Shown here one piece after another: positions 6,894 through 42,106 of a DNA stretch of 52,365 nt. Within the stretch, counting starts at the first letter, position 1, and every line of letters begins with the position of its first letter. Under the pieces are notes generated by a model that worked only from the letters and a program-made list of their open reading frames with translations, had not been told where the DNA came from and did not search any database. Made by a program: the position numbers and the translations under genes. This DNA comes from a virus, in IMG/VR virus record IMGVR_UViG_3300007754_000876, positions 1 to 52,365 of that record; one strand, written 5' to 3'.

Positions 6894-8816
6894 ATGTTTA
6901 GTAGTCCGTTTGAAACCAACACAGTAACAATTGATCAATCTGCTGATGTTGTATTCGTTGCAGACATGTTTGTTGAAGATTACGTAGGTGGAGCTGAATT
7001 AACCACAGAAGCGTTAGCATCTTCCTCAGGCTTGAATGTACAGAAATTACATGCAGCACATGTCACAATGGAACTGTTGGCCGCTGGAGTGGAAAAATAT
7101 TGGATATTTGGAAATTTCAGTTCGCTTAATCCAGAACTAATTCCTAGTATAGTGGGGAATATGAAATATTCTATTCTAGAATATGACTATAAGTTCTGTG
7201 CATATCGTTCAATAGAAAAACACAAGTTTGAAACAGGAAATGAATGTAACTGTCATGATCAAATTCATGGTAAAATTATATCATCTTTCTTCCACGGTGC
7301 CCAGTCTATCTGGTGGATGAGCGAAGAACAAGAACAAAGATATTTAGAGAGATTTCCTTTCTTGTCAGAAAATACAAGGGTTGTTCTTAGCAGCGTATTT
7401 GATGAAAGTTTCTTTGCTGCTATCAAGGTATTGACTGAGCAAAATAAAGACACAGAAAAGAAAGGATGGATTGTCCTCGGTTCTGATTCTTGGATTAAGG
7501 GTGCCGGCGCTGCAGAAGCCTATTGTCAGGAAAACAATTTAGAGTATGAGGTTGTTTGGAATATTCCGTATCAAGATATTCTTCAGAAGCTAGCTGTTGC
7601 ACAAGGATTCGTTTACCTTCCAGAGGGTGGTGATACATGTCCGCGAATGGTAATTGAGGCAAAGCTTTTGGGATGTGAGCTAGTATTGAATGACCACGTT
7701 CAACATAAGGACGAAGAATGGTTTACTTCTTCTTCGATTATAGACACATTGTCGTATTTGTACGCAGCTCGTAATCGATTCTGGAGCACGATTAAAAATA
7801 CAATGAACTATGTTCCAACGCTTAGTGGATATGTGACTGTTAGAAATGCAAATGATATGGGATATCCATGGAAGGCTTGTATAGAGTCAATGCTCGGATT
7901 TTGTAATGAGGTTGTTGTTGTAGACGGTGGTTCAACCGACAACACTTGGGAGGAGCTGGAAGCGTATTCAAGAGATGAATCGCGATTAGTCGTTAAGCGT
8001 TTCGCAATTGATCCGACACACCCAAGCTTTGCATATGAATCTGATGGTAAATTAAAGGCTCGCGCAAGAGAGCTATGCACTAGCGACTATTGTTGGCAAA
8101 TGGACGCTGATGAAATTGTGCATGAAACAGACTATGCAAAAATTCATCAAATCTTAATGTCATTTCCGAAGCTTATCGATGTTATTGCGTTACCTATTAT
8201 TGAGTATTGGGGGTCGATTGAGAAAGTTAGGGTTGATGTGAATCCTTGGAAATGGCGTTTGAGCAGGAACCTGCCACACATCACACAAGGTATACCAGCA
8301 GATTTGCGTCGGTTTGATGATGATGGTAATGAGTACGCTGCATTTGGCACTGACACGTGCGATTACATCCATGCCGAATCACGGGAGAGACTACAGTTTT
8401 GGTCATTTTACTCTCAGGATGTACATGAAATGAGGGCTGCGTCGCTGTCAGGGAACGCAGATGCTTTAGAAGCATACGAAGAGTGGTTTAACGCCGTTGT
8501 CGATCATCTCCCCGGCGTACACCATTATTCATGGTTTGACATTGGTAATAAGATAAAGCAATATAAGAAGCACTGGGGGGCGTTTTGGAAAAGCCAATAT
8601 CGTCATGATGCTGAGGACACCGCCGAGAACAACGTCATGTTTGATAAGCCGTGGGAGGAAGTGACGGATAACGATATTGATAATTTGGCAGTTCGATTGG
8701 CTGATCAACTTGGTGGGTGGATATTTCACAGAAAGATTGATTTTTCTGAACCGACACCACACATAACGATTAATAGAGAACATCCCGTTGCATTTCTTAA
8801 GAAGCACTCAGATTAG
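6894..8816 (+). CDS. Bifunctional glycosyltransferase (GT-B domain + GT2 domain)
   Basis: This 640-residue protein appears to join two glycosyltransferases. Residues about 1-300 look like a GT-B/GT4 fold: VGGAELTTE near the N-terminus corresponds to the usual G-G-A-E acceptor loop, and YLPEGGDTCPRMVIEAKLLG near residue 240 matches the nucleotide-sugar-binding E-x7-E region. Residues about 312-500 look like a GT2/GT-A domain, with DGGSTDNT after the first beta unit and a DXD-type MDADEIVHETD near residue 403. It would act in the cytosol on nucleotide sugars; the donor sugar cannot be read. It is the first island gene and starts after a strong GAGG ribosome-binding site. Fusion suggests two successive additions to the same acceptor. 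Confidence 0.75.
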   Translation: MFSSPFETNTVTIDQSADVVFVADMFVEDYVGGAELTTEALASSSGLNVQKLHAAHVTMELLAAGVEKYWIFGNFSSLNPELIPSIVGNMKYSILEYDYKFCAYRSIEKHKFETGNECNCHDQIHGKIISSFFHGAQSIWWMSEEQEQRYLERFPFLSENTRVVLSSVFDESFFAAIKVLTEQNKDTEKKGWIVLGSDSWIKGAGAAEAYCQENNLEYEVVWNIPYQDILQKLAVAQGFVYLPEGGDTCPRMVIEAKLLGCELVLNDHVQHKDEEWFTSSSIIDTLSYLYAARNRFWSTIKNTMNYVPTLSGYVTVRNANDMGYPWKACIESMLGFCNEVVVVDGGSTDNTWEELEAYSRDESRLVVKRFAIDPTHPSFAYESDGKLKARARELCTSDYCWQMDADEIVHETDYAKIHQILMSFPKLIDVIALPIIEYWGSIEKVRVDVNPWKWRLSRNLPHITQGIPADLRRFDDDGNEYAAFGTDTCDYIHAESRERLQFWSFYSQDVHEMRAASLSGNADALEAYEEWFNAVVDHLPGVHHYSWFDIGNKIKQYKKHWGAFWKSQYRHDAEDTAENNVMFDKPWEEVTDNDIDNLAVRLADQLGGWIFHRKIDFSEPTPHITINREHPVAFLKKHSD

Positions 8817-8830
8817 CCAGGAAGGATTCA

Positions 8831-9613
8831 ATGGCTAAGGTCAGTATTGTACTAGCAGTTCACAATGGCGGAAAAACGATCGGTCGAGCACTTAAGTCCG
8901 TTGCTGAGCAGACGTATCGGGATTTTGAAACAATTTTAGTGGACAACAATTGTACTGATAATACACTTGAGATAGCAAAAGAATATTCTGAGACTGCGAA
9001 CATACGAGTTGTTAAGTGCAAGACTCCTGGCCATCCAGCAGCTTTAAACACTGGGATATACAACAGCGATTCTCCTTATATCGCTCGACAAGACGATGAT
9101 GACTATTGGTATCCAAGTAAGCTAGAGAAGCAGGTCGCATTTTTAGATTCAAATCCAGAAGTAGGTGTTCTGGGAACTCGAATACGATTAGTGAATGCGG
9201 CCGGCGAAGAAGAAGAGCTTGGATCAATGGGGCGCCCAGTTGTGTACCCGCCTGATGATCACAATATCAAGTATTTTTTGATCCAAGGGCAGAACGCTTT
9301 TTGTCATTCTTCTGTTGTCATGAGACGAGAGGTGCCGCTAATAGCTGGTGGTTATAGTGAGCATTTTCCACTAGCGCAAGATATGCATTTATGGTTAAAG
9401 GCTATACCATATTTCGCCTTTGCAAATTTACCAGAAGTATTAGTTGATTACACTCAGGCACCGACCGACTGGGACAATCAAAAATATGATCCGAGAGTTG
9501 TCAGAGTTTTGTCGACGATGTATTACCAACTATACAAACTTCAGGGTGTAATTTCTGGTGATAGGCAGGAAGTGATTTACGATTGGGAGATTGAAAGGAA
9601 ATATGAGCGATAG
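8831..9613 (+). CDS. GT2-family glycosyltransferase
   Basis: This 260-residue protein has a canonical GT2 layout: VSIVLAVHNGGKTIGRAL at the N-terminus, a nucleotide-binding strand with VDNNCTDNT near residue 40, the metal-binding ARQDDDDYWYP near residue 87, and an acceptor-side GGYSEHFPLAQDMHLWLK near residue 175. It has no transmembrane segment, so it should be a soluble cytosolic enzyme. It follows the bifunctional transferase after 14 bases, with an AGGA-type site just before the ATG, and overlaps the next gene by 11 bases. The family transfers many sugars, so specificity is open. Confidence 0.85.
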   Translation: MAKVSIVLAVHNGGKTIGRALKSVAEQTYRDFETILVDNNCTDNTLEIAKEYSETANIRVVKCKTPGHPAALNTGIYNSDSPYIARQDDDDYWYPSKLEKQVAFLDSNPEVGVLGTRIRLVNAAGEEEELGSMGRPVVYPPDDHNIKYFLIQGQNAFCHSSVVMRREVPLIAGGYSEHFPLAQDMHLWLKAIPYFAFANLPEVLVDYTQAPTDWDNQKYDPRVVRVLSTMYYQLYKLQGVISGDRQEVIYDWEIERKYER

Positions 9614-10745
9614 TCAATGGGCACCCAAAGCGCTAAAAGATATGATCAATTTCGATGGTACTGCTCCTGAAATCGATTGGCGACTCTTAGGACAGGGTCG
9701 GTTGCTGGATAGGTGCACACGTTCCAATCCAGAGCTCACTTTTATGATACCTTTCGCTGCAGATTCTTTATCACGGGTAATCAATTTATGTCTTGTTGTA
9801 TCGCACTTATTGATGAACACCAGTTCAAAGATTCTTCTTACAATAGCAGACGTAAATTACACACTGGATGAATTACAAAATAACCCGAGACTTGGTAACA
9901 ACGGTAGAAACTGGAATTACGAGGGTTATTTTTTTGCTACGCTTGCTCAATGGTGGGGTGGCGACACCTTTGAAAAGGTAGCGCTTGGTCGGCTCACTGT
10001 AATATTACGACCCCGGAAACCTGGAGAACCATTTCATCGAACACTTTATCTTAATGATATGCTTGAGCAAGTTACAACTCGATATGTCGCAAATTTAGAC
10101 GCCGACGTCTTAATCGACGCATCGACGATCAGGCTGGCACAGACTATGTTAAGCACCACACTGGATGGAGATGGCGTTGCTGATTTTATTTATCCATACG
10201 GTCATGGCCAGTATTCTTTAAGGGTATGGGCAAAGCACCAGCTTGAGACCTCAAGCGCCCCCGACGGCCACCGCGAAGCTGAAGAAGCAGCTTCAGCGGA
10301 GTTGGCATATGCAATCATTGAATTGATTGCAAAAGACAATATTGATTTGTTATATTATCAAAATACAATATTAGACGTAGTGAGTGTTCCCTGGTCATCG
10401 GCCTTTGGTCACATATTTTTTGCGAAGACAGAAGCTTATTTGAGGGCGTACGGAGAGAATGAGAATTTTGTTTCGTGGGGTGCTGAAGATATAGAGAGGT
10501 TTACTAGGTTTTCGAAGCTTGGGTTTAAAGTTATGAGATTTCCTTATCCTGTTGTACATCTCGAGCATCCTCGAGGTCTTGATTCTGGAAAGTCTAATCC
10601 GCATTTTCAATCGAATGAAGACTTGTGGGTTTCGCTACAAGACAAAGATGTTGATTGGATCAAGAATTATTATGAAAATTGTGAATATTACAAAGCTCGA
10701 AAATGGAAGAGCCTGGACATGGGTGAATTATTTAAATGGCAATAG
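9603..10745 (+). CDS. GT7C/chondroitin-synthase-like glycosyltransferase
   Basis: I chose ATG 9603 over TTG 9591 because AAAGGA sits just upstream of it; this gives 380 residues. Motifs fit a GT-A enzyme with a galactosyltransferase-type C-terminal (Glyco_transf_7C-like) domain: HRTLYLNDML, then NLDADV as the DXD near residue 164, and SWGAEDIERFTRF near residue 291, where W-G-x-E-D positions the acceptor. The VVHLEHPRG stretch follows. It is a clear paralogue of the gene at 11566-12531, and the GT11 gene lies between the two. It is likely a hexosyl- or hexosaminyltransferase, with the donor unknown. Confidence 0.75.
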   Translation: MSDSQWAPKALKDMINFDGTAPEIDWRLLGQGRLLDRCTRSNPELTFMIPFAADSLSRVINLCLVVSHLLMNTSSKILLTIADVNYTLDELQNNPRLGNNGRNWNYEGYFFATLAQWWGGDTFEKVALGRLTVILRPRKPGEPFHRTLYLNDMLEQVTTRYVANLDADVLIDASTIRLAQTMLSTTLDGDGVADFIYPYGHGQYSLRVWAKHQLETSSAPDGHREAEEAASAELAYAIIELIAKDNIDLLYYQNTILDVVSVPWSSAFGHIFFAKTEAYLRAYGENENFVSWGAEDIERFTRFSKLGFKVMRFPYPVVHLEHPRGLDSGKSNPHFQSNEDLWVSLQDKDVDWIKNYYENCEYYKARKWKSLDMGELFKWQ

Positions 10746-10756
10746 GTGAAAATTAG

Positions 10757-11557
10757 ATGTTTTTTTATTCTGAATTAGGAAAAAATGGAAGGATTGGAAA
10801 TCAAATGTTCCAATATGCCACGCTTTTTGCGTTGGGCAAAAATAGACAAATTGACATTGGTATACCTGCCGCTGCAGTTGAGGTGTTTAAGAATACTACA
10901 AAGCCGCTTAGTATTGTTGAGGCCTTCCCCAATTTGTCCGCGAAAAAAATAGACGACATTGAGGCTAAAGGGCAATATCAAGAAGAGAGCTTTTTATTTT
11001 CACCAAACCTGTTTTTGTTAATGGACAATTGTGATATTCATGGTTACTTCCAGTCTCCCCTTTACTTCTCTAAATTCCAGGAGGAGTTGAGAGAAGAGTT
11101 TCAATTTAGCAGAGATATAGATTCTGTTGCTCAAGGAAAAATAGATGATATTCGATCTTCTGATTCTCTTGTATGTGCCGTACATTTCAGGCGCTCCGAT
11201 TATCTAGAGTTCCCAAATTTTCACACTAATCTAGAAGCAGAATACTACAACACGGCAATCTCGATTATGCTAAATAAATTTCCTGACATTAAATTTGTAG
11301 CGTTTTCAGATGATGCTGAGTGGCTTCAAGAGACTTTGCCCCCAGAGATTTTGGCTTCCCCAGGTGAAAACCAATTCGAAGATATGTGTATGATGACTAA
11401 ATGTGACGCTCACGTAATCGCTAATTCTTCGTTTAGCTGGTGGGGGGCTTGGTTATCAACAAGTACTAATCTTGTTATCGCGCCCCAGCGCTGGTTTGGT
11501 CCTGAGGGGCCGAAAGACTGGAGTACAATTTACCCACCGGGATGGGGCTTGCTGTAG
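10757..11557 (+). CDS. Alpha-1,2-fucosyltransferase-like (GT11)
   Basis: This 266-residue protein carries the three hallmark motifs of family GT11: GRIGNQMFQYATLFAL at the N-terminus, HFRRSDYL (family form H-x-R-R-x-D-Y) near residue 148, and NSSFSWWGAWL near residue 223. GT11 enzymes transfer L-fucose from GDP-fucose, usually alpha-1,2 to galactose. GDP-fucose can be supplied by the Gmd and Fcl homologues at 32952 and 29174. It has an AGGTGAA ribosome-binding site and no membrane segment. It is slightly shorter than the typical 280-300 residues but has all the motifs. The acceptor is unknown; the flanking GT7C-like transferases are candidates for building it. Confidence 0.9.
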   Translation: MFFYSELGKNGRIGNQMFQYATLFALGKNRQIDIGIPAAAVEVFKNTTKPLSIVEAFPNLSAKKIDDIEAKGQYQEESFLFSPNLFLLMDNCDIHGYFQSPLYFSKFQEELREEFQFSRDIDSVAQGKIDDIRSSDSLVCAVHFRRSDYLEFPNFHTNLEAEYYNTAISIMLNKFPDIKFVAFSDDAEWLQETLPPEILASPGENQFEDMCMMTKCDAHVIANSSFSWWGAWLSTSTNLVIAPQRWFGPEGPKDWSTIYPPGWGLL

Positions 11558-11565
11558 GAGAAATA

Positions 11566-12531
11566 ATGTCTTGGTTTCCAGATGATATGAAAAATGCTGA
11601 GTGGGGTAACGTAGAGCTCGATACAGAGAGTACGTTATACAAATTGCTGTACCGTCCTGATGAGAAAAAACTCGACTTGAGCGATCACACATTTATTATT
11701 CCATATGCAACAGATTCTTATGTAAGATTATGGAATCTTGTAACCAGCGTTTTATACCTGCGAATTCATACATCTGCCAATATACTGATTTTCGCAGCAG
11801 AAGACCCAACTCTCAATATAGAACAAAATTTAGTTGCTGGGTTACAAGGCTTGTACACACCGAATATTACAAATGAATTTCTCCAAAAATTTATTGAAAG
11901 AGTAAAAATAATAAGTGCTACTCGTTCGACTGATCAACCGTTCCATCGTACACGCTATTTGAATGAAATGTTGGCAGTCGTAGATACACCGTATGTCGTA
12001 AATTTCGATGCAGACATATTGCTTCCATTGGGAACAATGGCAGTTTCTGCATTGGCACTTAGAGATGAAAATGCTGACTTTGTTTATCCGTATGGTCATG
12101 GTAAGAACCAGCTTCGTCTTTTTATTGAAGATGACATGTCATCTGATAGAAAGATTGTAGACGCTATTATCCATTCTGATTTTGGTGGTATATTAAACGA
12201 CCGCGGTCTTAGGTGGGGCGCAGCCTACGGCCAGGCGATATTTGCGAATACAGAGAAGTACAAACAAGCTGGCGGAGAAAATGAGGAATTTATTTCGTGG
12301 GGTGCCGAAGATGTTGAACGGTTTGTAAGGTTTATGAAGCTAGAGTATAATGTTTTAAGGCTACCATCTATCGTTTATCACTTAGAGCACCCACGAGGTC
12401 CTGATTCTGGTGTGACAAATCCAGCATTTCGACACAATGAACAGCTGTGGGAAACGCTTCAAAAAATGAGCAAAGACGAATTGATTGAATATTACAGCAA
12501 GTGTGGCTACCTAAAGAATCGCGGTTGGTAA
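11566..12531 (+). CDS. GT7C-like glycosyltransferase, paralogue of 9603-10745
   Basis: ATG 11566 is preferred because AGGAG lies about 7 bases upstream; ATG 11542 is in frame but would overlap the fucosyltransferase. The 321 residues repeat the motif set of the earlier paralogue: HRTRYLNEML, NFDADILLP near residue 146, YPYGHGKNQLR, SWGAEDVERFVRF near residue 244 and YHLEHPRGPDSG. It lacks the roughly 50-residue insert of its relative between the first strands and the DXD. The pair probably adds related sugars to the same glycan. The donor sugar is not readable. Confidence 0.75.
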   Translation: MSWFPDDMKNAEWGNVELDTESTLYKLLYRPDEKKLDLSDHTFIIPYATDSYVRLWNLVTSVLYLRIHTSANILIFAAEDPTLNIEQNLVAGLQGLYTPNITNEFLQKFIERVKIISATRSTDQPFHRTRYLNEMLAVVDTPYVVNFDADILLPLGTMAVSALALRDENADFVYPYGHGKNQLRLFIEDDMSSDRKIVDAIIHSDFGGILNDRGLRWGAAYGQAIFANTEKYKQAGGENEEFISWGAEDVERFVRFMKLEYNVLRLPSIVYHLEHPRGPDSGVTNPAFRHNEQLWETLQKMSKDELIEYYSKCGYLKNRGW

Positions 12532-12535
12532 TAAA

Positions 12536-13933
12536 ATGAGTTTTGCTGATTATTTCAAGGAAGTGTTTTATAAAAGGTTGTTTCAACCCCAATTGCCAGC
12601 AACGAGACCTCGCAATAGAGCAGATTCTTTGTTAAAGGTATTCGAAATTCTGGACGAAAGAAGTAAGAATGGCCAAGATTTTTTTCGCATTGTAGAAACG
12701 GGTACTGCTAGAGCAGACCATGGCCATTTGTGCTTTGGCGGTGACGGATGCTGTACTTACATTTTTGATAAGTTTGTGAATCATTATGATGGTGAAGTAT
12801 TATCCGTTGATATCAATGAAAAAAATTGTCGGTATTCCACCTCTATTACTTCACAGAAAACAGTATTATACCATCAAGACTCCGTGGAGATGCTTTGGTC
12901 AATGCCAGAAGCCGACAAGGTGGACCTTCTTTATTTGGACACCATTGATTTTGATCCTGAAAATCCGTATCCTTCTATGTCTCAATGTATGAAAGAGCTT
13001 TGTGCTGCTATGAAAAATTTAAGACCTGAGTCCATAGTCATTATCGATTCTCATGATCCGCTCTTTACGGGAGGAAAGATGTGCAAGAGCTTGTACGTCA
13101 AGAACTTTATGAGTGATATAAAAGCAGATCTACTTTTTGAAGATTATCAAATTGGGTGGATTTTCGAAAGTGACGACACCAATATAGACGAAAAAGATAC
13201 CAGTACGAATAAAAACGTCGATATGTCTGTAATGACTGAGACTCGTCATGCCGCGGCTCAAGAATACGAATGGGCTGCGACAGTTGACTGGGTAGGACAT
13301 GCTCTTCCTACTTTGAATCATTGGGTCGAGGAGAGGAATGATACAGAATATTGGTGCGGTGAATCGGGTGAAATGGCCAACCTAAATCAATTTTTTCTTA
13401 ATGATGAAGATGTTTGGTTAAAATTTGCAAAAGAAATTCAGGATAAGACTTTGTTGGAAATTGGGGGGTCTTGTTTTGGAACAGTGGCTAGATGGAGCTT
13501 TATAAAGACTCGTATACATATTGAGCCGTTGTTACCGAAGATTAATCCTTTCCTTGAGAAAGCGCTCCAAGGCCGCGACTCCTGGTACAAGGATGTAATC
13601 GAGTATCCAGTTTGTGCCGAAGAATTTATATCTGAGCTCGAAGATAGAATTGATGGGTGCATTTATACTAGAAATTGTCTTGATCACACCAAGAATCCCT
13701 GGGCAATTTTAGACAATATTGGTCGGTATGCTAAAAAGGGTTGTTATTTGTTATTGTGGACTGAAATAGCACACCTCGATGGTGGGGATGTTGGTCATAT
13801 AGACATAACTCATAATCCTGAAGATTTAGAGAGCTATATCAAGAATTTGGGCTTTGAAATTATAAGACCAGTCGTTGTTGGGAATTTAGAGCATACACTA
13901 GAATATGGTTGTTTTGCCATAAAGAATGAGTAA
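12536..13933 (+). CDS. Tandem two-domain SAM methyltransferase-like protein
   Basis: This 465-residue protein contains two class I methyltransferase-like units. Residues 1-215 include FRIVETGTARADHG near residue 52 (a G-x-G-type loop), LSVDINEKNCRY and DLLYLDTIDF, and they are closely similar to the whole of the separate gene at 20296-20940. Residues about 235-465 include a second loop, TLLEIGGSCFGTV, near residue 305, followed by an HIEPLLP acidic strand. The likely role is methylation of sugar hydroxyls in the glycan. There is only a weak ribosome-binding site before the ATG, so translation may be coupled to the upstream gene, which ends 4 bases before. Catalytic activity of each half is unproven. 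Confidence 0.65.
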   Translation: MSFADYFKEVFYKRLFQPQLPATRPRNRADSLLKVFEILDERSKNGQDFFRIVETGTARADHGHLCFGGDGCCTYIFDKFVNHYDGEVLSVDINEKNCRYSTSITSQKTVLYHQDSVEMLWSMPEADKVDLLYLDTIDFDPENPYPSMSQCMKELCAAMKNLRPESIVIIDSHDPLFTGGKMCKSLYVKNFMSDIKADLLFEDYQIGWIFESDDTNIDEKDTSTNKNVDMSVMTETRHAAAQEYEWAATVDWVGHALPTLNHWVEERNDTEYWCGESGEMANLNQFFLNDEDVWLKFAKEIQDKTLLEIGGSCFGTVARWSFIKTRIHIEPLLPKINPFLEKALQGRDSWYKDVIEYPVCAEEFISELEDRIDGCIYTRNCLDHTKNPWAILDNIGRYAKKGCYLLLWTEIAHLDGGDVGHIDITHNPEDLESYIKNLGFEIIRPVVVGNLEHTLEYGCFAIKNE

Positions 13934-18642: not shown

Positions 18643-18651
18643 GGATGAATC

Positions 18652-19503: not shown

Positions 19504-19527
19504 AAATGGAGCAAGGATTTATAGACC

Positions 19528-20265: not shown

Positions 20266-20295
20266 TCATTGGATTGTTGAGAATAGGAGAATAAA

Positions 20296-22501: not shown

Positions 22502-22505
22502 TAAA

Positions 22506-22904: not shown

Positions 22905-22906
22905 AG

Positions 22907-23920: not shown

Positions 23921-23930
23921 GGAAATGATT

Positions 23931-25750: not shown

Positions 25751-25759
25751 GGGGAAAGA

Positions 25760-26500: not shown

Positions 26501-26979
26501 GACGTGCTTTTGGAAGAGTAATTGTGAAGTTGGCTGAAAAAGATGAGAACATTGTTTTAGTGACTGGAGATGTTGAACAAGAGATGGAGGAATTCAAAGA
26601 TCGATGGCCAGAACGATATTTGAACGCTGGGCTCTGTGAGCAATCAATGATCAGTATGGTTGCAGGAATGGCTCTGGAGGGCTTACGTCCAGTTGTCTAT
26701 TCTATTACCCCCTTTCTTATTGAGAGACCGTTTGAGCAGATCAAAATAGACATCGATGAGCAGAAGTTACCTGTAATGCTGGTAGGACAAGCTGATTATC
26801 CGACCCATGGACCGACACACCGCCCATTAAACCCAGAGGGGCTGATTGGGCTTTTAAAAAATACAATTGGGTATTTCCCCAGAAATCAACAGGAAACTGA
26901 AAAAGCAATGATCGACGCATATCTTATGGCTGAACCAGCGATTATCTGCATTAAGAGAGACGGTCTTCCCTTTTTCTAA
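26497..26979 (+). CDS. Transketolase pyrimidine-binding subunit lacking C-terminal domain
   Basis: The 160 residues match only the transketolase PYR domain: VLVTGDVEQEM, RYLNAGLCEQSMISMVAGMA with the cofactor-activating Glu48, and the PTHGPTHRPL loop. Split transketolase C-subunits are usually about 300 residues because they carry an additional C-terminal domain; this one stops after PAIICIKRDGLPFF. The frame is intact, the gene is ATGA-coupled to its partner and the next gene begins 14 bases on, so truncation looks real and stable rather than a sequencing break. A heterotetramer with the preceding subunit is expected. Confidence 0.82.
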   Translation: MRRAFGRVIVKLAEKDENIVLVTGDVEQEMEEFKDRWPERYLNAGLCEQSMISMVAGMALEGLRPVVYSITPFLIERPFEQIKIDIDEQKLPVMLVGQADYPTHGPTHRPLNPEGLIGLLKNTIGYFPRNQQETEKAMIDAYLMAEPAIICIKRDGLPFF

Positions 26980-26999
26980 AATTTAAGTTAAGCGTGAGA

Positions 27000-27743
27000 A
27001 TGAAAAAGATATTGGTCATAGGAGAAAGTTGTCAGGATATTTTTGTCTATTGTAATGCAAGCCGCTTATGTCCAGATATTCCTGTTCCTGTTCTAAATGA
27101 AAAATATCGGACTGACAACCCGGGTATGGCTGCTAATGTTCATCGAAACATTCACGCCTTGGGTGTGACAAGCGATATTATTACAAACGATAACTGGGGG
27201 GATATTACTAAAAAACGGTACGTTCATGAAGAGAGTAATCACATGTTCTTTAGGGCCGATTCGGTAGACGAAATAGAAAGAATAGACTTAAGCGTGATAT
27301 CATATGATTATGACCTGATTGTAATATCAGACTATGATAAGGGTTTCTTGACTGAAGCAGATATAAAAATAATATGCTCAAACCATAATAACGTATTTAT
27401 TGATTCTAAGAAAATTTTAGGGACGTGGGTTCATGATGCTAGATATATCAAGATCAATCATACAGAATACCAGCGCTCGAAAAGCTATATTGATAAAACA
27501 ATGTTCGAAAAAATTATTCGGACTGAAGGCCCAAGAGGGTGTGTATATAGGGAAGTGGTCTATCCAGTCAACAAGGCTGAGGTAAAAGATGTATCGGGCG
27601 CGGGCGATAGTTTTCTAGCGGCTCTTGTGGTAAAGTTTTTAGAAAATTCTGATATAATAGAAAGTATAAAATTTGCAAATAAGTGCGCTTCTGAAATTGT
27701 TACAAAGAGGGGGGTTTCAACGATACAATGCAACGTGTATTAG
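27000..27743 (+). CDS. HldE N-domain-like heptose-7-phosphate kinase (PfkB family)
   Basis: About 247 residues are co-linear with the kinase half of HldE: RLCPDIPVPVLNEKYRTDNP followed by GMAANVHRNI, VISDYDKGFL, the anion-hole motif DVSGAGDSF with catalytic Asp, and FANKCASEIVTKRGVSTI at the end. The expected reaction phosphorylates C1 of D-glycero-D-manno-heptose-7-phosphate. It is about 60 residues shorter than the E. coli domain, with contractions in the middle, so substrate range may differ. ATG 27000 and GTG 26994 are both possible; neither has a clear ribosome-binding site. It overlaps the HldD-like gene by 16 bases. Confidence 0.82.
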   Translation: MKKILVIGESCQDIFVYCNASRLCPDIPVPVLNEKYRTDNPGMAANVHRNIHALGVTSDIITNDNWGDITKKRYVHEESNHMFFRADSVDEIERIDLSVISYDYDLIVISDYDKGFLTEADIKIICSNHNNVFIDSKKILGTWVHDARYIKINHTEYQRSKSYIDKTMFEKIIRTEGPRGCVYREVVYPVNKAEVKDVSGAGDSFLAALVVKFLENSDIIESIKFANKCASEIVTKRGVSTIQCNVY

Positions 27744-28546
27744 TCACAGGAGCTGACGGTTTTATTGGGAAGAATCTTGCCGCAACCCTAAAAGAAGAAG
27801 CGCAAATTTTTTGTTTGTCTGAAGACAATTTGGATGACGCTAGATGGAAAGACGTGTGGAACCATTTTCTGGAAGAGGCGTCTCCTGCTGTCATTTTTCA
27901 TGTCGGCGCGTGTTCCGACACATTAGAACAAAACGTTAATTTTATGATGCATCGAAATTATGAGACAACAAAGTTTCTAATGGATTGGTGCGTCAACAAT
28001 AGCGTTCCAATGATTTACTCTTCTTCTGCTGCAAGCTATGGAGTGACTGAAGACTATCCATCGAACTTATATGGATGGAGTAAGTACGTCGCAGAAGATT
28101 ATGTGGTGAGTAATTCTGGCATCGCATTACGTTATTTTAATGTGTATGGCCCGGGGGAGGAACGCAAGGGGAAGATGGCGTCGATTGTGTATCAGATGTA
28201 CAAAAGGCACCAAGGAAATTTGGAGTGCAAGTTATTTCCAAAACGACCTCTTCGAGATTTTGTGTATGTGAAAGATGTTGTGTCTGCAAACATTCATGCT
28301 TACAAGAATTACGAATCGTTAAGAGGATCATACTACGATGTTGGTAGCGGTCAATCAAGGGCATTTGAGGATATTCTTGATTTGCTAGAAATCGAATATT
28401 CTTATCACTCCACTCACACGATTCCAGAGGGCTATCAATTTTTCACCTGCAGCGATAAAGAAAAGTGGCTACCGGGCTGGGCCCCAGAGTATCAGCTCGA
28501 AGCAGGAATCGAGGATTATGGAAAAGTATTACGATTACAGCGTTGA
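27728..28546 (+). CDS. hldD: ADP-glyceromanno-heptose 6-epimerase-like (HldD)
   Basis: This 272-residue extended SDR tracks HldD along its length: VLVTGADGFIGKNLA, IFHVGACSDTLEQN (HldD: H-x-G-A-C-S), SSSAASYG, Tyr115-x3-Lys119 in YGWSKY, ALRYFNVYGPGEERKGKMAS and RDFVYVKDVVSANIHAY. It is about 40 residues shorter than E. coli HldD. It would convert ADP-D-glycero- to ADP-L-glycero-D-manno-heptose. The gene sits directly after the kinase-like gene and before an oxygenase. The RYFNVYGP-KGKMAS block is what separates HldD from GalE or RmlB relatives. Confidence 0.85.
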   Translation: MQRVLVTGADGFIGKNLAATLKEEAQIFCLSEDNLDDARWKDVWNHFLEEASPAVIFHVGACSDTLEQNVNFMMHRNYETTKFLMDWCVNNSVPMIYSSSAASYGVTEDYPSNLYGWSKYVAEDYVVSNSGIALRYFNVYGPGEERKGKMASIVYQMYKRHQGNLECKLFPKRPLRDFVYVKDVVSANIHAYKNYESLRGSYYDVGSGQSRAFEDILDLLEIEYSYHSTHTIPEGYQFFTCSDKEKWLPGWAPEYQLEAGIEDYGKVLRLQR

Positions 28547-29177
28547 CGATTATCAATTCGTCGAAGCCATATCTGGTTTATTTGATTGTGGTAATTTACA
28601 GTATCTGCATGAAATGCACATTGACGAATATGAGTTTTTTGATAAGCCGGGAAAAGATTCGGATACCATATTCCATCAAAAGTTTTATAACAAAATGAGA
28701 TCTGGCTGGCCAGAATTTCTTGAATTATATCAAAAATTTATTAGAGAATTTATAGCTCCCATTACTAATGCGAAAGACCAACTCATATATCAAAAGTGGC
28801 CTACATTTCGGGTACACCTCCCAAATAACGTAGCAGTGGGCGGATGGCATAAGGATAGCGACTACAATCACCCTCTTGGGGAGACAAATTTTATACTTGC
28901 ATTAACTCCTATGTTCGAGAGTAATACAACTATTGCGGAAAGCGAGCCGGGGAAGATGGATTTTCATCAGCTTGAATTAATGCCTGGTCAGATTGTGCGC
29001 TTTAATGGAAACCAGTGCACTCATGGAAACCTCCCTAACAAGACTGGCGTTACCAGGGTGAGTTTCGATTTTAGGATCATGATGCCAGAAGACTATAACT
29101 CAAATTATCGCTTAACTTCGCTAAGCAAAGGAAACAAATTTCTTATTGGTCACTATTATGAGGTTATGGAGATATGA
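28518..29177 (+). CDS. Fe(II)/2-oxoglutarate-dependent oxygenase-like protein
   Basis: The 219 residues contain a double-stranded beta-helix pattern: GGWHKDSDYNHPLGETNF gives the H-x-D metal pair (His111, Asp113), and RFNGNQCTHGNLPNKTG provides the distal His169 followed by an Arg-rich strand (VTRVSFDFRI). This layout resembles StrG/phytanoyl-CoA-hydroxylase-type enzymes found in aminoglycoside and O-antigen clusters. It could hydroxylate or dehydrogenate a sugar. It overlaps the HldD-like gene by 29 bases and the fucose synthase gene by ATGA, so it sits inside the nucleotide-sugar block. Confidence 0.7.
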   Translation: MEKYYDYSVDDYQFVEAISGLFDCGNLQYLHEMHIDEYEFFDKPGKDSDTIFHQKFYNKMRSGWPEFLELYQKFIREFIAPITNAKDQLIYQKWPTFRVHLPNNVAVGGWHKDSDYNHPLGETNFILALTPMFESNTTIAESEPGKMDFHQLELMPGQIVRFNGNQCTHGNLPNKTGVTRVSFDFRIMMPEDYNSNYRLTSLSKGNKFLIGHYYEVMEI

Positions 29178-30100
29178 GGGTTGTAATCACAGGCGGAACA
29201 GGGATGGTCGGAGCTGGATTTCGAAGCATAGAGACAGAGCATGAACTTATATTTGTTGGCTCGAAAGATTATGACTTAAGATATCTTGATGATACTCGAT
29301 GTATGGTGAGGGACCACTGTCCTGAAGCAATAATACATCTTGCTGCCAGGGTGGGCGGAGTAAAGGGCAACTCTGATTTTGTCGCGGACTTTTTTTCTGA
29401 TAATATTCGGATAAATACAAACGTCTTGTCGGTTGCACATAAGCTTGGAGTAGGGAAGGTTGTTTCTTTGTTATCAACTTGCGTATACCCTGATGCAGTT
29501 GTGTATCCTCTAACAGAAGAGCAGATTCATGACGGTGAGCCGCACCCCAGCAACTTTGGTTATGCGTACGCTAAGAGGATGCTGGACGTACACTCAAGGG
29601 CCCTTCGTCAGCAATATGGATGTAACTTCATCTGCGCAGTGCCAAACAATCTGTACGGTCCTTATGATAATTTTGATTTAGAAAATGGGCATGTCATACC
29701 ATCGATAATAAGAAAGGTGTGGGAAGCAAAGCAAACGGGAAATCCACCTGTTCTTTGGGGCGATGGGTCTCCATTAAGGGAATTTACGTACTCAAGAGAT
29801 ATTGCAATTGCGTTGCTTTTTTTATTAGAAAATTATGATTTGGCTGCTCCTGTGAATATAGGCACGACAAACGAGGTAAGCATCAAAAACATAGTGAGCA
29901 TGATTTGTGAAAGTTTAGAATACGACGGAGAAATTGTTTGGGATATTACAAAGCCAAGCGGTCAATTTAAGAAACCAAGCTCTAATAAGCGCTTTCTTTC
30001 TCTTGGTTGGCCATCTGCCTCGTATACGCCTCTGCGGAAGGGTATACAATTGACATGCAAATGGTTTAAGGAAAGCTATCCAAATGTAAGGGGAGTTTGA
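29174..30100 (+). CDS. fcl: GDP-L-fucose synthase-like
   Basis: This 308-residue SDR shows the GDP-fucose synthase signatures: VVITGGTGMVGAGF, HLAARVGGVKGN, LLSTCVYPDA, HPSNFGYAYAKRMLD with Tyr130 and Lys134, and NLYGPYDNFDLENGHVIPS followed by the LWGDGSPLREFTY stretch. It would epimerise and reduce GDP-4-keto-6-deoxymannose to GDP-L-fucose. The substrate can be made by the Gmd homologue at 32952 and the product used by the GT11 enzyme at 10757. ATG overlaps the preceding TGA. Length is normal for the family. Confidence 0.9.
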   Translation: MRVVITGGTGMVGAGFRSIETEHELIFVGSKDYDLRYLDDTRCMVRDHCPEAIIHLAARVGGVKGNSDFVADFFSDNIRINTNVLSVAHKLGVGKVVSLLSTCVYPDAVVYPLTEEQIHDGEPHPSNFGYAYAKRMLDVHSRALRQQYGCNFICAVPNNLYGPYDNFDLENGHVIPSIIRKVWEAKQTGNPPVLWGDGSPLREFTYSRDIAIALLFLLENYDLAAPVNIGTTNEVSIKNIVSMICESLEYDGEIVWDITKPSGQFKKPSSNKRFLSLGWPSASYTPLRKGIQLTCKWFKESYPNVRGV

Positions 30101-30102
30101 AA

Positions 30103-30810
30103 ATGAATGTCTTAGTTCCAATGGCTGGCGCGGGCAGTCGATTTATGTCTGCGGGCTACGTTCTACCAAAGCCATTAATCGACGTTGATGGTACTCCAAT
30201 GATACAAACTGTTGTTGAAAATCTCGGTTATGATGCAACTTATATTTTTGTCGTTCAGGCTTCGCATTACCACGAATATGGTCTTGCAAGTTTTTTGGAA
30301 TCTATAGCTCCAGGGTGTAAAATAGTCTTGGTAGACGGAATGACAGAGGGAGCAGCGTGTACAACACTTTTGGCTAGAGACTATATCGCTAATAATGACT
30401 CGCTACTGATTGTTAATTCTGACAATGTATTCGATTGGGACAACATGGCATTCTTAAGAGACGCAACGCAACCCGGCGTTGATGGGTGTATTCTTGTATT
30501 TAACGGTACGAACCCAAAATGGAGCTTCGCGAAGACGGACGAAACAGGCCGAGTAACGGAAGTAGCTGAAAAAAAGCCCATCAGCGATATAGCCACTGCT
30601 GGAGCATATTTTTGGGCAAGAGGCTCTGATTACGTACAAGCAGCAAGTCAAATGATAGAAAAAGATATAAGGACTAATAACGAATTCTATGTCTGTCCAG
30701 TATACAATGAGTTAATCAATAATGGTGGCTACGTTACAGTGTCATACGTCGAGAAGATGTGGGGACTTGGAACGCCAGAAGACTTACAATATTATTTGGA
30801 GCATCACTAG
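30103..30810 (+). CDS. Sugar-phosphate nucleotidyltransferase
   Basis: ATG 30103 is chosen because AAGGGGAG lies 8 bases upstream. The ~235 residues carry the nucleotidyltransferase loop VLVPMAGAGSRFMSAGYVLP followed by KPLIDVDGTPM, a metal-binding LIVNSDNVFDWD, and EKMWGLGTPEDLQYYLEH at the end. This places it among the GCD1/RmlA-like pyrophosphorylases that make NDP-sugars. The base and sugar are not readable; GDP-mannose for the fucose route or a CDP/UDP sugar are options. It resembles short family members found in capsule loci rather than full-length ManC. Confidence 0.8.
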   Translation: MNVLVPMAGAGSRFMSAGYVLPKPLIDVDGTPMIQTVVENLGYDATYIFVVQASHYHEYGLASFLESIAPGCKIVLVDGMTEGAACTTLLARDYIANNDSLLIVNSDNVFDWDNMAFLRDATQPGVDGCILVFNGTNPKWSFAKTDETGRVTEVAEKKPISDIATAGAYFWARGSDYVQAASQMIEKDIRTNNEFYVCPVYNELINNGGYVTVSYVEKMWGLGTPEDLQYYLEHH

Positions 30811-30811
30811 T

Positions 30812-31444
30812 TTGGGATATACGTCTTTTATTTTTGACAATGACGGGGTGCTTGTAGACACCACTGAGCTACAAGTTAAAGCAACGCTAGCAGCAATTGA
30901 CGAGGTCTTGAATTTAAAGCTAACAACTCAAGAAGATATTTCTGTCCTTAAGTCAACTATAACTACTCGTGATAAGCTCATAAAGCTTTGTCAAAAGGGG
31001 TACTTTACTCTTAATAAAGTAGACGCTGTATACGAAAGAAAAAAAATAATCACAAATAAAATGATGAGTATGTTAGACTCTGAAGACTATCAAGACAAAA
31101 TTGAAATGTTTGAATTTTTACGACGAGAAAATAAAAACATAGCGGTAGTAACGAATGCGAACCGTGCTTCGACAGTTACACTACTAAATAATCTTGGTTT
31201 TATGAAGTACCTAGATGTGTTAATAACGAATAATGATGTAAAGAACACAAAGCCACACGCCGAACCATATGTTAGGGCGATGCTTCAATTAGGCGGCTCA
31301 ATTGAGGACTTCATAATATTCGAAGACTCTGTAACAGGTTTAGCCTCGGCTCGCGGCTCAGGCGCAACTGTTTACGAGATCAGCAATTTTAGAGATGTAA
31401 ATACCCAATTGATGGAAGAAATAATAGCGGGAAATTACAAATGA
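30812..31444 (+). CDS. HAD-superfamily phosphatase (beta-phosphoglucomutase-like)
   Basis: A TTG at 30812 with GGAG upstream is the likely start, giving about 210 residues; longer frames would run back into the nucleotidyltransferase. FIFDNDGVLVDTTELQ is HAD motif I (Asp nucleophile), VVTNANRAS is motif II, KPHAEPY is near motif III and FIIFEDSVTGLASARGSG is motif IV. The helical cap after motif I fits phosphatases acting on small sugar phosphates. It could supply the missing phosphatase step of the heptose route or act elsewhere. Confidence 0.75.
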   Translation: MGYTSFIFDNDGVLVDTTELQVKATLAAIDEVLNLKLTTQEDISVLKSTITTRDKLIKLCQKGYFTLNKVDAVYERKKIITNKMMSMLDSEDYQDKIEMFEFLRRENKNIAVVTNANRASTVTLLNNLGFMKYLDVLITNNDVKNTKPHAEPYVRAMLQLGGSIEDFIIFEDSVTGLASARGSGATVYEISNFRDVNTQLMEEIIAGNYK

Positions 31445-31899
31445 TTTTTATTGCTCATCGAGGAAACACCAACGGCCCCGTGCCGTCCTTAGAAAATAAT
31501 CCAGACTATATTGATAAAGCGCTACAGGCAGGTTTCTATGCTGAGGTCGATGTTCGGCAGGGTGAAAGTTCCGAAACGTTTATTGTGGGTCATGATTTTG
31601 GTGAATACCAATTAGATATTTCTTGGTTCCTCCAGCGCAGAGAAAAATTGTTTATTCATGCTAAAGACTTAAGCACGTATGCTTATTTTCTAAGTGATAA
31701 TCAAGTGTGGCATGTTTTCTGGCATCAAAACGACGCATACACCATGACATCTTCCGGATATATATGGGCGTATCCCGGTAGCGAATTAAACGATAAGTGT
31801 ATATGTGTGATGCCAGAAACAGCGTCATATTCCTCTGAGCAATTATCGATATGTGCAGGTATTTGCAGCGATTATGTTGCTTCAATGTACAGCGGGTAG
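31441..31899 (+). CDS. Short glycerophosphodiester-phosphodiesterase-like protein
   Basis: The 152 residues begin FIAHRGNTNGP and continue LENNPDYIDKALQAGFYAEV, DVRQG and IVGHDFGEYQL, matching the H-R-G, E-N, E-x-D and H-D metal/catalytic elements of the GDPD/PI-PLC-like TIM barrel. Typical GDPD is 240 residues, so the second half of the barrel is shortened. Similar short proteins occur in polysaccharide loci with no proven reaction. It is coupled by ATGA to the HAD gene. Role unknown. Confidence 0.65.
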   Translation: MIFIAHRGNTNGPVPSLENNPDYIDKALQAGFYAEVDVRQGESSETFIVGHDFGEYQLDISWFLQRREKLFIHAKDLSTYAYFLSDNQVWHVFWHQNDAYTMTSSGYIWAYPGSELNDKCICVMPETASYSSEQLSICAGICSDYVASMYSG

Positions 31900-31944
31900 T
31901 GTATGCTAAAACATCTTCTAAAATTCTAATATTATTTTGTTTAT

Positions 31945-32955
31945 ATGGAAAACACAAAAAAAGAGACTGTTCTAATAACAGGGGGCGCGGGATTTATTGG
32001 CCACGCGATAATAGAGCACTTATTAAGGACTACCGATTTTGATATTGTATCGCTTGATCGGCTGGATACATCTGGATGTCTAGACAGGATAAGTGATGTT
32101 ATTGCGAAAAACCCATCGTGGCGCCGACGCACTCATGTAATTTGGCACGATCTCAAAGCGCCTTTGAGCGACCATGTTATACACAAGCTGGGGAGAATAG
32201 ACTACATCTTGCATCTTGCAGCAGGTTCTCATGTAAATCGTAGTATACAATATCCTCTTGAGTTTGTGATGGACAATGTGGTTGGTACTTGTAATTTACT
32301 GAACTACGCGAAGGAACGCTGTGAAACGTTAAAACTGTTTTTATATTTCAGCACTGATGAGGTTTTTGGTCCAGCACCGCCAGGAACCACGTTCAAAGAA
32401 AACGACAGGTATAATGCTAAAAATCCCTACGCTGCAACAAAAGCAGCGGCCGAGGAGCTGTGTAATGCATATGCAAACACGTATAAACTTCCTGTTATCG
32501 TCACGCATACAATGAACGCATATGGCCCACGACAGCATCTCGAGAAATTTATTCCTATAGTAATAAAGAAGTTACAAAATAATGAAAGTATTGTGATTCA
32601 CTCAGACCGAGGAGGTACAAGACCTTCGAGCCGTCGCTACCTTTTTTCTAGAGACGTTGCTGAAGCTGTAAGATTTTTAATGCTGACGCATACCATTGGG
32701 GAAAAATATAACGTTCGAGCGGATGCTGAAACAGATAATTTAACGCTTGCGAAGATGATCGCTTCCATTATGGGAAAAGAGTTAAGGTATGAGTTGAAGT
32801 ACCCAGAGCGCACAAGACCAGGAAACGATTTTAGGTATTCTGTGTGCGGGGAAAAATTACAAAAAATGGGGTGGAGGCAGCAAACAAGTTTGGAACAAGG
32901 CCTTGAGGAAACGATACGCTGGTATCTGGACAATCCGACGTGGGGCGTTTTATGA
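31945..32955 (+). CDS. NDP-sugar 4,6-dehydratase/epimerase (RmlB-like SDR)
   Basis: This 336-residue extended SDR has VLITGGAGFIGHAIIEHLL, HLAAGSHVNRSIQYP, YFSTDEVFGPAPPG with the acid pair D-E typical of dehydratases, and YAATKAAAEEL with Tyr162 and Lys166. MNAYGPRQHLEKFIP also follows the RmlB order. It is probably a nucleotide-sugar 4,6-dehydratase; the nucleotide is uncertain. A 45-base AT-rich spacer precedes it with no obvious ribosome-binding site, unusual in this island. It overlaps the Gmd-like gene by ATGA. Confidence 0.8.
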   Translation: MENTKKETVLITGGAGFIGHAIIEHLLRTTDFDIVSLDRLDTSGCLDRISDVIAKNPSWRRRTHVIWHDLKAPLSDHVIHKLGRIDYILHLAAGSHVNRSIQYPLEFVMDNVVGTCNLLNYAKERCETLKLFLYFSTDEVFGPAPPGTTFKENDRYNAKNPYAATKAAAEELCNAYANTYKLPVIVTHTMNAYGPRQHLEKFIPIVIKKLQNNESIVIHSDRGGTRPSSRRYLFSRDVAEAVRFLMLTHTIGEKYNVRADAETDNLTLAKMIASIMGKELRYELKYPERTRPGNDFRYSVCGEKLQKMGWRQQTSLEQGLEETIRWYLDNPTWGVL

Positions 32956-34004
32956 AAATAGCAATGATCACGGGGGTAACAGGCCAAGACGGATCATATC
33001 TTGCCGAATTTTTGCTTGAAAAGGGGTATCGTGTTATTGGGTTGAAGAGAAGAACAAGTCTAATTACAACAGACCGAGTGAATGAAATTTATGATAATCC
33101 AAATTTTGAATTGCGATATTACTCTCTGCATGATCCCACAACATTATATCGGTTGCTAGAAGAATACAGACCCTCTGAATTTTATAACCTTGCTGCTCAA
33201 TCTCATGTGCGTGTTTCTTTTGACGTCCCCATTGAGACTGTAGACTCGATTGCAATGGGTACATTGCGCATTTTTGAAGCGATTCGTCATGTAGATAAAG
33301 AAATAAAAATATATCAGGCTTCATCTTCAGAGATGTACGGTGATAATCCTACCCATCCCCAGAATGAGAGTACGACATTTATGCCTGTCAGCCCTTACGC
33401 TTGCGCTAAATTATTTGCACATAATCTGTGCCGGAATTATCGTGAAGGATATGGCATGCATATTTCTAGCGGAATTCTTTTTAATCATGAATCACCGCGT
33501 CGGGGAGAAACGTTTGTAACAAAGAAGATAACCCGCGCCGCGGCCAGAATTAAGCTGGGGCTACAAGAAAAATTATATCTCGGGAATTTAGACGCAAAGC
33601 GTGACTGGGGATATGCAGGTGACTATGTGGAGATGATGTGGTTAATGCTACAACAGGACAACCCTGACGATTATGTAATTGCAACAGGAGAAACTCACTC
33701 TGTTAGAGATTGGCTCGAGGCAGTCTTTAAGGAAGCTGGGTTACCGATCGATGGGAACGTAGAGATCGATCATCGCTTGTTTAGACCACATGAAGTACCC
33801 TTGCTGCTGGGTGATCCGTCTAAGGCTAAGGAAAAGCTTGGGTGGGAACCAAAGATGAAATTTCAACAATTAGCAAAGCTAATGTACCAGGCTGATCGAC
33901 TGGAGGCCGAAAGAGACCTTCGAGCCGCAGGTCGTGATTTAAAGCTTCAAGGCTTGATGGATGGTCAGAAAATACCATTTCGAGGTTTTAAAAAAATAGA
34001 GTAA
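32952..34004 (+). CDS. gmd: GDP-mannose 4,6-dehydratase-like
   Basis: ATG 32952 (overlapping the previous TGA) is chosen over GTG 32940, giving 350 residues, close to E. coli Gmd. The family pattern is clear: ITGVTGQDGSYLAEFLLEKG, YNLAAQSHVRVSFDVPIET, IYQASSSEMYGD (Thr/Ser-Glu), YACAKLFAHNL with Tyr149 and Lys153, ILFNHESPRRGETFVTKKI and LGNLDAKRDWGYAGDYVE. It converts GDP-mannose to GDP-4-keto-6-deoxymannose, the substrate of the Fcl homologue. It is the last gene of the sugar island. Confidence 0.94.
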   Translation: MKIAMITGVTGQDGSYLAEFLLEKGYRVIGLKRRTSLITTDRVNEIYDNPNFELRYYSLHDPTTLYRLLEEYRPSEFYNLAAQSHVRVSFDVPIETVDSIAMGTLRIFEAIRHVDKEIKIYQASSSEMYGDNPTHPQNESTTFMPVSPYACAKLFAHNLCRNYREGYGMHISSGILFNHESPRRGETFVTKKITRAAARIKLGLQEKLYLGNLDAKRDWGYAGDYVEMMWLMLQQDNPDDYVIATGETHSVRDWLEAVFKEAGLPIDGNVEIDHRLFRPHEVPLLLGDPSKAKEKLGWEPKMKFQQLAKLMYQADRLEAERDLRAAGRDLKLQGLMDGQKIPFRGFKKIE

Positions 34005-36235: not shown

Positions 36236-36236
36236 C

Positions 36237-42104: not shown

Positions 42105-42106
42105 CA

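Follow-up and report, generated by a model that had tools for sequence, protein, structure and literature searches.

Gene content of a phage sugar locus

We analyzed a 52,365-nt stretch of viral DNA (the window: IMG/VR record IMGVR_UViG_3300007754_000876, positions 1-52,365), which is a fragment of a longer phage and carries an island of 32 sugar-related genes at 6894-34004. The phages that share this locus form a lineage of jumbo phages, few of them cultured, in which fixed genes frame sugar genes that vary between phages. An earlier note on this DNA had described about 32 adjacent, mostly overlapping same-strand genes, and this description held: all 32 genes lie on the + strand, 99.4% of the bases are coding, and 19 of the 31 gene junctions overlap. 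The G+C content is 37-43% in the island versus 48-49% across most of the fiber genes, and megablast with 20 kb of island sequence matched nothing in a set of 50,697 phage records.

The same note had listed glycosyltransferases, nucleotide-sugar enzymes, methyltransferases, sulfotransferases and an oxygenase. Family matches bore out the glycosyltransferases (Pfam GT2 for g03, g04 and g14, Glyco_transf_7C for g05 and g07, and GT11 for g06), the nucleotide-sugar enzymes (g13, g19, g27, g29, g30, g33 and g34 in the family libraries) and the two sulfotransferases (g15 and g17; PF03567, E 8e-13 and 2e-12). GT11 we take to be a fucosyltransferase family. The oxygenase and most of the methyltransferases gained no confirming family: g28 matched no Pfam family at E<=0.01 and no NCBIfam family at 1e-5, g08 gave a weak methyltransferase match below the cut-off, and g16 and g23 matched no family at all. 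As to the borders, fiber-like genes do lie on the left (g02, 1811 aa, and g01) and a gp25-like baseplate gene (g43) on the right, but the sugar genes run past 34004. To the right of that position come a PD-(D/E)XK nuclease gene (g35), a pair of GT4 glycosyltransferase genes (g36 and g37) and then g38; because the GT4 pair is part of the locus, its better limits are 6894-37397. The genes are as follows (coordinates in the window, strand, description).

1..1278, +: g01, 3' end of a fiber-like gene (a 2148-aa open reading frame, ORF, in the 254.7-kb record described below)
1278..6713, +: g02, fiber-like, 1811 aa; C-terminus weakly BclA_C-like, below cut-off
6894..8816, +: g03, left anchor; GT-B-like domain (about residues 15-306) fused to a GT2 domain
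8831..9613, +: g04, GT2 glycosyltransferase; commonly the second gene in nearer relatives
9591..10745, +: g05, Glyco_transf_7C glycosyltransferase
10757..11557, +: g06, GT11 family (Pfam E 2.5e-27)
11542..12531, +: g07, Glyco_transf_7C, family of g05
12536..13933, +: g08; N-terminal half like g16 by eye, C-terminal half with the weak methyltransferase match
13926..14711, +: g09, no family found (Pfam, NCBIfam)
14693..15034, +: g10, HAD phosphatase (weak; like the EcbF/BcbF capsule phosphatase)
15034..16371, +: g11, PaaK/AMP-ligase-like, below cut-offs
16355..17413, +: g12, class I/II aminotransferase, HisC-like
17413..18642, +: g13, nucleotide-sugar dehydrogenase, likely of UDP-glucose type; exceeds the TIGR03026 cut-off
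18652..19503, +: g14, GT2 glycosyltransferase
19528..20265, +: g15, sulfotransferase
20296..20940, +: g16, no family; like the N-terminal half of g08 by eye
20928..21716, +: g17, sulfotransferase
21680..22501, +: g18, no family or PDB match
22491..22904, +: g19, heptose-1-phosphate nucleotidyltransferase-like (RfaE domain II; E 5e-43, below cut-off)
22907..23266, +: g20, cupin
23267..23920, +: g21, short-chain dehydrogenase
23925..24941, +: g22, zinc-type alcohol dehydrogenase
24938..25750, +: g23, no family (FkbM-like by eye only)
25760..26979, +: g24-g25, transketolase as separate N and C halves
26994..27743, +: g26, heptose-7-phosphate kinase-like (RfaE domain I; E 5e-33, below cut-off)
27728..28546, +: g27, ADP-heptose 6-epimerase-like (HldD; E 1e-59, below cut-off)
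28518..29177, +: g28, putative oxygenase, unconfirmed by Pfam or NCBIfam
29174..30100, +: g29, GDP-L-fucose synthase-like (E 5e-73, below cut-off)
30097..30810, +: g30, sugar-1-phosphate nucleotidyltransferase-like
30722..31444, +: g31, HAD phosphatase (beta-phosphoglucomutase-like)
31441..31899, +: g32, no family found
31945..32955, +: g33, NDP-sugar dehydratase/epimerase
32940..34004, +: g34, GDP-mannose 4,6-dehydratase (456 bits versus the TIGR01472 cut-off of 415)
34046..34918, +: g35, PD-(D/E)XK nuclease, right anchor
34982..36235, +: g36, constant GT4 glycosyltransferase
36213..37397, +: g37, constant GT4 glycosyltransferase
37384..37710, +: g38, 108 aa, with a long N-terminal hydrophobic stretch; retained beside the GT4 pair
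41607..43951, +: g43 (gp25-like, just under the Pfam cut-off) and g44 (baseplate wedge, query for the synteny search)

A fixed frame around a variable interior

Relatives of the locus were collected from both sides. The search with g44 found 53 loci, and from its longer records 15 relatives were chosen, through g44 and not through g03. Besides the 254.7-kb record, all 15 of the upstream stretches fetched in this way carried g03 on the left and g35 after the sugar genes, and all 15 relatives had g35-g37 on the right; homologs of g01 occupied the same position in most of them. The search with g03 gave 84 loci (80 viral loci kept of 317, plus four genome contigs); in 12 of them the retrieved sequence extends to g35 or g36. 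Another ten large records, also selected by means of g03, all read in the order cassette, g35, g36, g37, g38, g39, g40, g41, g43, g44. Exceptions to the order did occur: the g37 homolog precedes g35 in record G031, locus L197 runs g35-g36-g37-g03, a g13-like gene sits between g35 and g36 in the G017-like records and in G024, and some partial loci (e.g. L177) have opposite-strand ORFs soon after g03.

Interiors were compared among 18 representative islands that have g03 at one end and a right anchor at the other. From the first 15 records a single island of each type was retained (G003, G004, G007, G009, G011, G012, G018 and G019 were dropped), and to these were added the window and the ten large records. 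At 30% identity and 60% coverage, their 373 proteins fell into 198 families, 142 of which were singletons, whereas g36, g37 and g44 stood beside all 18 islands. An average pair of islands had roughly one tenth of its pooled families in common: mean family overlap (shared/pooled, 153 pairs in total) reached 0.27 in the five pairs whose g36 proteins are more than 70% identical, and lay at 0.07-0.12 in the bins under that identity. The window and record G006, in which g36 is 76% identical, have kept most of the block g19-g27 and differ in most of the genes g04-g18. Within each of the 18 islands all island genes have the same direction, and in the ten large records this direction is also that of the baseplate genes. 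A Pfam census of 148 of the 161 proteins from six islands (g03 and the last 13 proteins of G032 excluded) found 84 families; the 25 commonest were sugar-nucleotide enzymes, GT1, GT2 and GT4 glycosyltransferases, cupins, general NAD(P) folds, and methyl-, formyl-, carbamoyl- and aminotransferases.

One locus (L161) has an empty site, in which g03 is followed directly by g35, g36 and g37 with no cassette between them. The cassette can therefore be absent while the core stays.

Pattern-based scans detected 317 relatives of g03 in IMG/VR and four among 84,980 genomes, and tblastn with g03 found none in 50,697 phage records. Species labels of the four genome contigs are unrelated to one another, and at least one of the hits lies in a phage-like contig. 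Contig NHDW01000006.1 (305,838 bp; locus L196, contig C5 of G028), which is filed under a Methylococcaceae metagenome-assembled genome, has the full phage frame and probably represents a phage that was binned wrongly.

Two cultured phages, Flavobacterium phage immuto and Microcystis phage Mel-JY01, carry paired homologs of g36 and g37 after a PD-(D/E)XK nuclease gene and ahead of sugar genes. In Mel-JY01 one gene lies between the nuclease and the transferase, and the g36 homolog is annotated in two pieces. Both phages resemble the window in the order of the nuclease, g36 and g37 homologs and in having sugar genes without multi-pass proteins, but they differ from it in that g03 is unmatched and the locus lies away from the baseplate genes. 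Identities between g35-g37 and these homologs are 25-40%. The literature that we searched, in which subscription journals were largely uncovered, contained no description of the g03/g36/g37 frame; apparently new are the constant transferases that frame the locus, how far this frame extends, the site without a cassette and the connection to cultured phages.

Absence of membrane export proteins

The earlier note had reported no Wzx, Wzy, PHPT-type initiating transferase or other membrane protein in the island, and had named a flippase, polymerase or initiating transferase elsewhere in the same phage as evidence that would overturn its proposal. We counted hydrophobic 19-residue segments by hydropathy (threshold about 1.6) rather than with a trained predictor; by the identical procedure, Wzy and Wzx of E. 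coli K-12 gave six and nine segments, respectively. Zero proteins of the 6894-34004 island had two hydrophobic segments, in agreement with the note, and the top 19-residue mean (1.62) fell at the Rossmann start of g13. Across the 18 islands, 0 of 373 proteins were multi-pass (two or more segments). Among 957 ORFs downstream of g03 in the 84 loci, most of which were cut by the fetched length, two had at least two segments, and both lie on the opposite strand of locus L198.

We then turned to the phage as a whole. Gene g44 occurs at 100% identity in six IMG/VR records, and a 254,743-bp record (G001, IMGVR_UViG_3300007770_001284) contains the window at 99.97-100% identity. A terminal-repeat check of this record found no repeat, so the record is possibly not complete. 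In the 247,290 bases scanned (294 ORFs), a 1552-aa tape-measure-like ORF had 19 hydrophobic segments and all other ORFs had at most three; no other ORF of at least 50 aa, in any frame of the record, had five or more. The flippase family PF01943 gave no match over its cut-off in 22/22 records, G001 included (a single sub-threshold match, E 0.01, was to a 203-aa protein with one N-terminal segment), and the PHPT family PF02397 was absent from 15/15 records, while control genomes matched. No polymerase or WecA-type enzyme appeared by hydropathy, the sole means used for both, as no polymerase family was searched. Thus, within the reach of these two families and of hydropathy, the 254.7-kb record yielded none of the three export or initiation proteins named above.

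In these respects the islands are unlike Wzx/Wzy-dependent O-antigen and capsule loci, as they hold neither a polytopic flippase or polymerase nor a membrane initiating sugar-phosphate transferase (WecA type judged by hydropathy only). We concluded that the lack of membrane enzymes supports cytosolic synthesis. Outside the cassette, a 281-291-aa ORF with five hydrophobic segments was observed at the g42 position in G017, G018, G019 and L185.

A possible glycosylation system and its acceptor

The reading that we favor, and to which we give slightly less than an even chance, is that the virus encodes its own glycosylation system, which works in the cytosol and combines a constant core with an exchangeable cassette, the acceptor being most likely a virion protein. 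The products of g03, g36 and g37 would initiate and elongate a short core glycan, for which the whole lineage would use a common acceptor, and the cassette would make activated sugars and add type-specific outer residues, which here may be sulfated. GDP-L-fucose would be made by g34 and g29 and used by g06, UDP-glucuronate would come from g13, and ADP-heptose probably from g26, g19 and g27. Sedoheptulose phosphate may be supplied by the transketolase halves g24-g25, with g10 and g20 as candidate phosphatase and isomerase; no GmhA-type isomerase was recognized in Pfam scans of the island proteins. Sulfate would be added by g15 and g17. Here we infer both the division into core and outer residues and the roles of g10, g20 and g24-g25. 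The acceptor (a fiber, baseplate or head protein) would be modified before lysis, and recombination that exchanges cassettes would give the particle another surface type, as do, in chloroviruses, the outer sugars specific to each virus that sit on a conserved core. The absent membrane enzymes, the near phage-specificity of g03 and the co-directional baseplate genes support a virion-protein acceptor.

The same enzymes could instead yield a free product, that is, a small sugar metabolite or reshaped host nucleotide-sugar pools with no macromolecular acceptor. The split transketolase, the cupin and the dehydrogenases would suit such small-molecule chemistry, and a jumbo-phage review, in its accessible text, suggests that another type of cyanophage cluster makes a metabolite (PMC7824862). 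We consider this outcome very improbable, given that the constant part consists of three transferases and that glycosyltransferase families rank with the most frequent ones of the 148 cassette proteins.

Several observations weigh against cytosolic glycosylation of a virion protein. The sole island family found in 18/18 islands is g03, and this holds by construction because the islands were defined by g03 and the right anchor. Structure models of g03 and g36 (mean predicted local distance difference test scores, pLDDT, of 91 and 86) have GT-B/GT4 folds, and their structure matches were generic for these folds, with tied scores and no acceptor named. The g03 matches included protein-glycosylating Gtf3 (Z 16.7) and DNA-glucosylating AGT (1xv5; Z 16.3, root-mean-square deviation [rmsd] 4.3, 258 residues aligned), and in a viral structure library g03 obtained mostly low-coverage glycosyltransferase matches. 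Single windows above 1.6 were seen in 7 of 242 island ORFs from the first 15 records, and two of these seven are copies of g13 in islands of the window type; judged by eye, all seven resemble soluble folds. The nearest membrane-type protein, g38, sits just outside the 6894-34004 interval, follows the GT4 pair in the ten large records (after g36 in G031), and carries a membrane-type stretch (two windows by the hydropathy count) with which it could tether the transferases to a membrane. In immuto, over 20 kb separates the baseplate genes from the g36-g37 pair and cassette, whose neighbors are genes of lysis and replication. Adjacency to a fiber gene is also not universal. Seven of the 84 g03 loci begin at a contig end, and directly upstream of g03 in the 77 readable loci we found a homolog of the window's fiber/lectin-domain genes in 18, another long ORF in 22, another same-strand gene in 20 and an opposite-strand gene in 17. 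Lastly, the lineage's acceptor molecule is still an unproven candidate. The earlier note had proposed that the glycan is built in the cytosol on a protein, most simply the adjacent fiber. Cytosolic synthesis stands after the hydropathy counts, but the 18/77 tally led us to drop the adjacent fiber as sole target and as a rule.

Another reading is remodeling of the host surface, whereby soluble phage transferases would build on host lipid acceptors (lipopolysaccharide [LPS] core or undecaprenyl-linked units) at the inner membrane face and host exporters would carry the product out. Because soluble transferases can use acceptors that the host makes and exports, a host lipid acceptor has to be reckoned with. 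In known systems the transferases of the LPS core are soluble, the locus encodes heptose and LPS-like enzymes, and g38 might be the membrane tether. In cyanophage P-SSM2, the 15-gene sugar cluster is likewise free of multi-pass proteins, and 11 of its 15 genes have island homologs at 32-55% identity. Host-surface modification is moreover the published reading of similar cyanophage and pelagimyophage clusters in the accessible text of PMC7029224 and PMC7824862, a further point against a virion acceptor. We nevertheless judge this explanation rather unlikely. The 18 islands encode no multi-pass initiating or serotype-conversion enzyme by hydropathy, the cassette is co-directional with the baseplate genes in the ten large records, and nearly all g03 relatives detected are in phage contigs, a distribution easier to reconcile with an acceptor that the phage makes than with varying host acceptors. 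If host-surface remodeling were nonetheless true, it would conceal the infected cell from other phages or support an infection that is long and stable.

DNA is a further candidate acceptor; the structures that g03 matches with tied scores include a T4 DNA glucosyltransferase and many other GT-B enzymes. In this reading g36 and g37, and perhaps cassette enzymes, would glycosylate 5-hydroxymethylcytosine in the phage DNA and so block host nucleases. Record G001 encodes, at 197249-198280, a thymidylate-synthase-family protein that is nearest to CMP 5-hydroxymethylase (E 6e-43 versus 2.6e-23 for the best thymidylate synthase). It carries Asp at the nucleotide-specificity site, where a bacterial-contig enzyme in the same comparison has Asn; we take Asp to mark the hydroxymethylase form and Asn the canonical form. 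This candidate dCMP hydroxymethylase hints at modified cytosine, and the occurrence of its relatives in 6 of 9 records or contigs of at least 178 kb tells against a protein acceptor as well. In phage RM378, a g36 homolog is located one gene from that of a ribonucleotide reductase. We consider DNA glycosylation improbable all the same. Family PF00303 is absent from G025 (236 kb), G026 (284 kb) and G027 (257 kb), which may be incomplete, and from the complete genomes of Mel-JY01 and RM378, and the single PF00303 gene of immuto carries Asn. A hydroxymethylase in every carrier was therefore not found by PF00303, the one route to modified bases that was searched. DNA is unlikely to be the common acceptor because G025-G027 lack PF00303 and immuto has the Asn form only; g36 or g37 could act on DNA in some phages. 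To our knowledge, up to about 30 genes with sulfotransferases exceed the known needs of DNA modification.

Comparison with known systems

For cytosolic glycosylation of a virion protein, the nearest working analog would be the capsid glycosylation of chloroviruses (PBCV-1). According to the accessible text of PMC7019647 and PMC4691112, chloroviruses encode a pair of GDP-mannose 4,6-dehydratase and GDP-fucose synthase along with fused transferases, and synthesis is cytoplasmic; a four-sugar core is conserved and the outer sugars are virus-specific (PMC7019647). The window is similar in its soluble, virus-encoded transferases and GDP-fucose pathway (g29 being below the curated cut-off), and in a conserved core with variable outer enzymes, seen here at the level of gene content. 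One of the best fold matches of g36 is to the chlorovirus transferase 3oy2 (Z 33.8, rmsd 3.3, 367 aligned, versus 35.0 for the top match). In contrast to the window, which is known from its genes, chloroviruses are eukaryotic algal viruses whose glycan and major capsid protein acceptor are solved, and we found no evidence of common descent of the two systems. Freeman (2023), as cited in PMC12619734, is said to have reported capsid glycosylation in mycobacteriophages.

A bolder version of this comparison, which we advance tentatively and think somewhat doubtful, is that this widespread, uncultured lineage has a phage counterpart of chlorovirus glycosylation: working in the host cytosol with a constant set of core transferases, the phages would place complex glycans (here fucose-, heptose- and sulfate-bearing) on their own particles, recombining cassettes would define glycotypes and hence surface serotypes, and the cyanophage 'LPS clusters' would be the same thing, misread. 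In the literature, the sugar clusters of large marine phages are interpreted as directed against the host surface, or possibly as stuffer DNA (PMC7029224, PMC3037559 and PMC7824862, accessible text). A fixed frame and swappable cassette with no export gene make phage-owned, changeable glycan coats testable, and the cultured phages immuto and Mel-JY01 allow such a test without culturing the uncultured lineage.

The cyanophage LPS clusters of P-SSM2 and S-SSM7 are like the window in being soluble sugar clusters in large phages. The P-SSM2 cluster (15 sugar genes, none multi-pass) has homologs of g34, g29 and g06, and g03, g36 and g37 had no match in P-SSM2 at E 1e-5; the cluster adjoins hli03 and is not in the tail block (PMC3037559, accessible text). 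At 193428-205500 of P-SSM2, 7 of the 11 genes with an island homolog had their best match in the cassette of record G008, at up to 55% identity, which points to sugar-gene exchange between phage lineages. The host-recognition cluster of pelagimyophages is described as a hypervariable island with glycosyltransferases and tail fibers, but its location is between VrlC and gp14, and its role is taken to be modification of the host O-chain; the accessible text does not mention fixed transferase anchors (PMC7029224). Moraphages are, like this lineage, large aquatic phages, and have four core glycosyltransferase groups; the accessible text places lysine-tRNA ligase in 24 moraphage genomes (Table 2), where it is not invariant (PMC12619734). 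Identity of our lineage with the moraphages was considered and found unsupported, as lysine-tRNA ligase was in 0/14 of our records.

Other features of the phage

The T4 late promoter TATAAATA was upstream of 0/264 genes. A motif ATA[CT]TTA[AT] was found 14-119 bases upstream of 22 starts in G001 (e.g. 163416), the tape-measure-like gene included, and is a candidate phage promoter unlike TATAAATA of T4. It does not occur within 200 bp before any gene of the window, and the timing of the island cannot be read from it.

Genes g46 and g47 (45512-51753), downstream of the baseplate genes, encode large proteins with LamG/ConA-like lectin domains, which are possible glycan-binding parts of the particle. 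The likeness of g18 to a heptosyltransferase was seen by eye only, and we rejected this assignment after family and PDB searches gave no match. The HldE-like kinase (26994-27743) and nucleotidyltransferase (22491-22904) domains are two separate genes, and transketolase is split likewise; the g10 homolog adjoins g19 in G006. Finally, g16 and the N-terminal half of g08 are much alike by eye over about 200 residues and look like recent duplicates, with the block g09-g15 lying between them.

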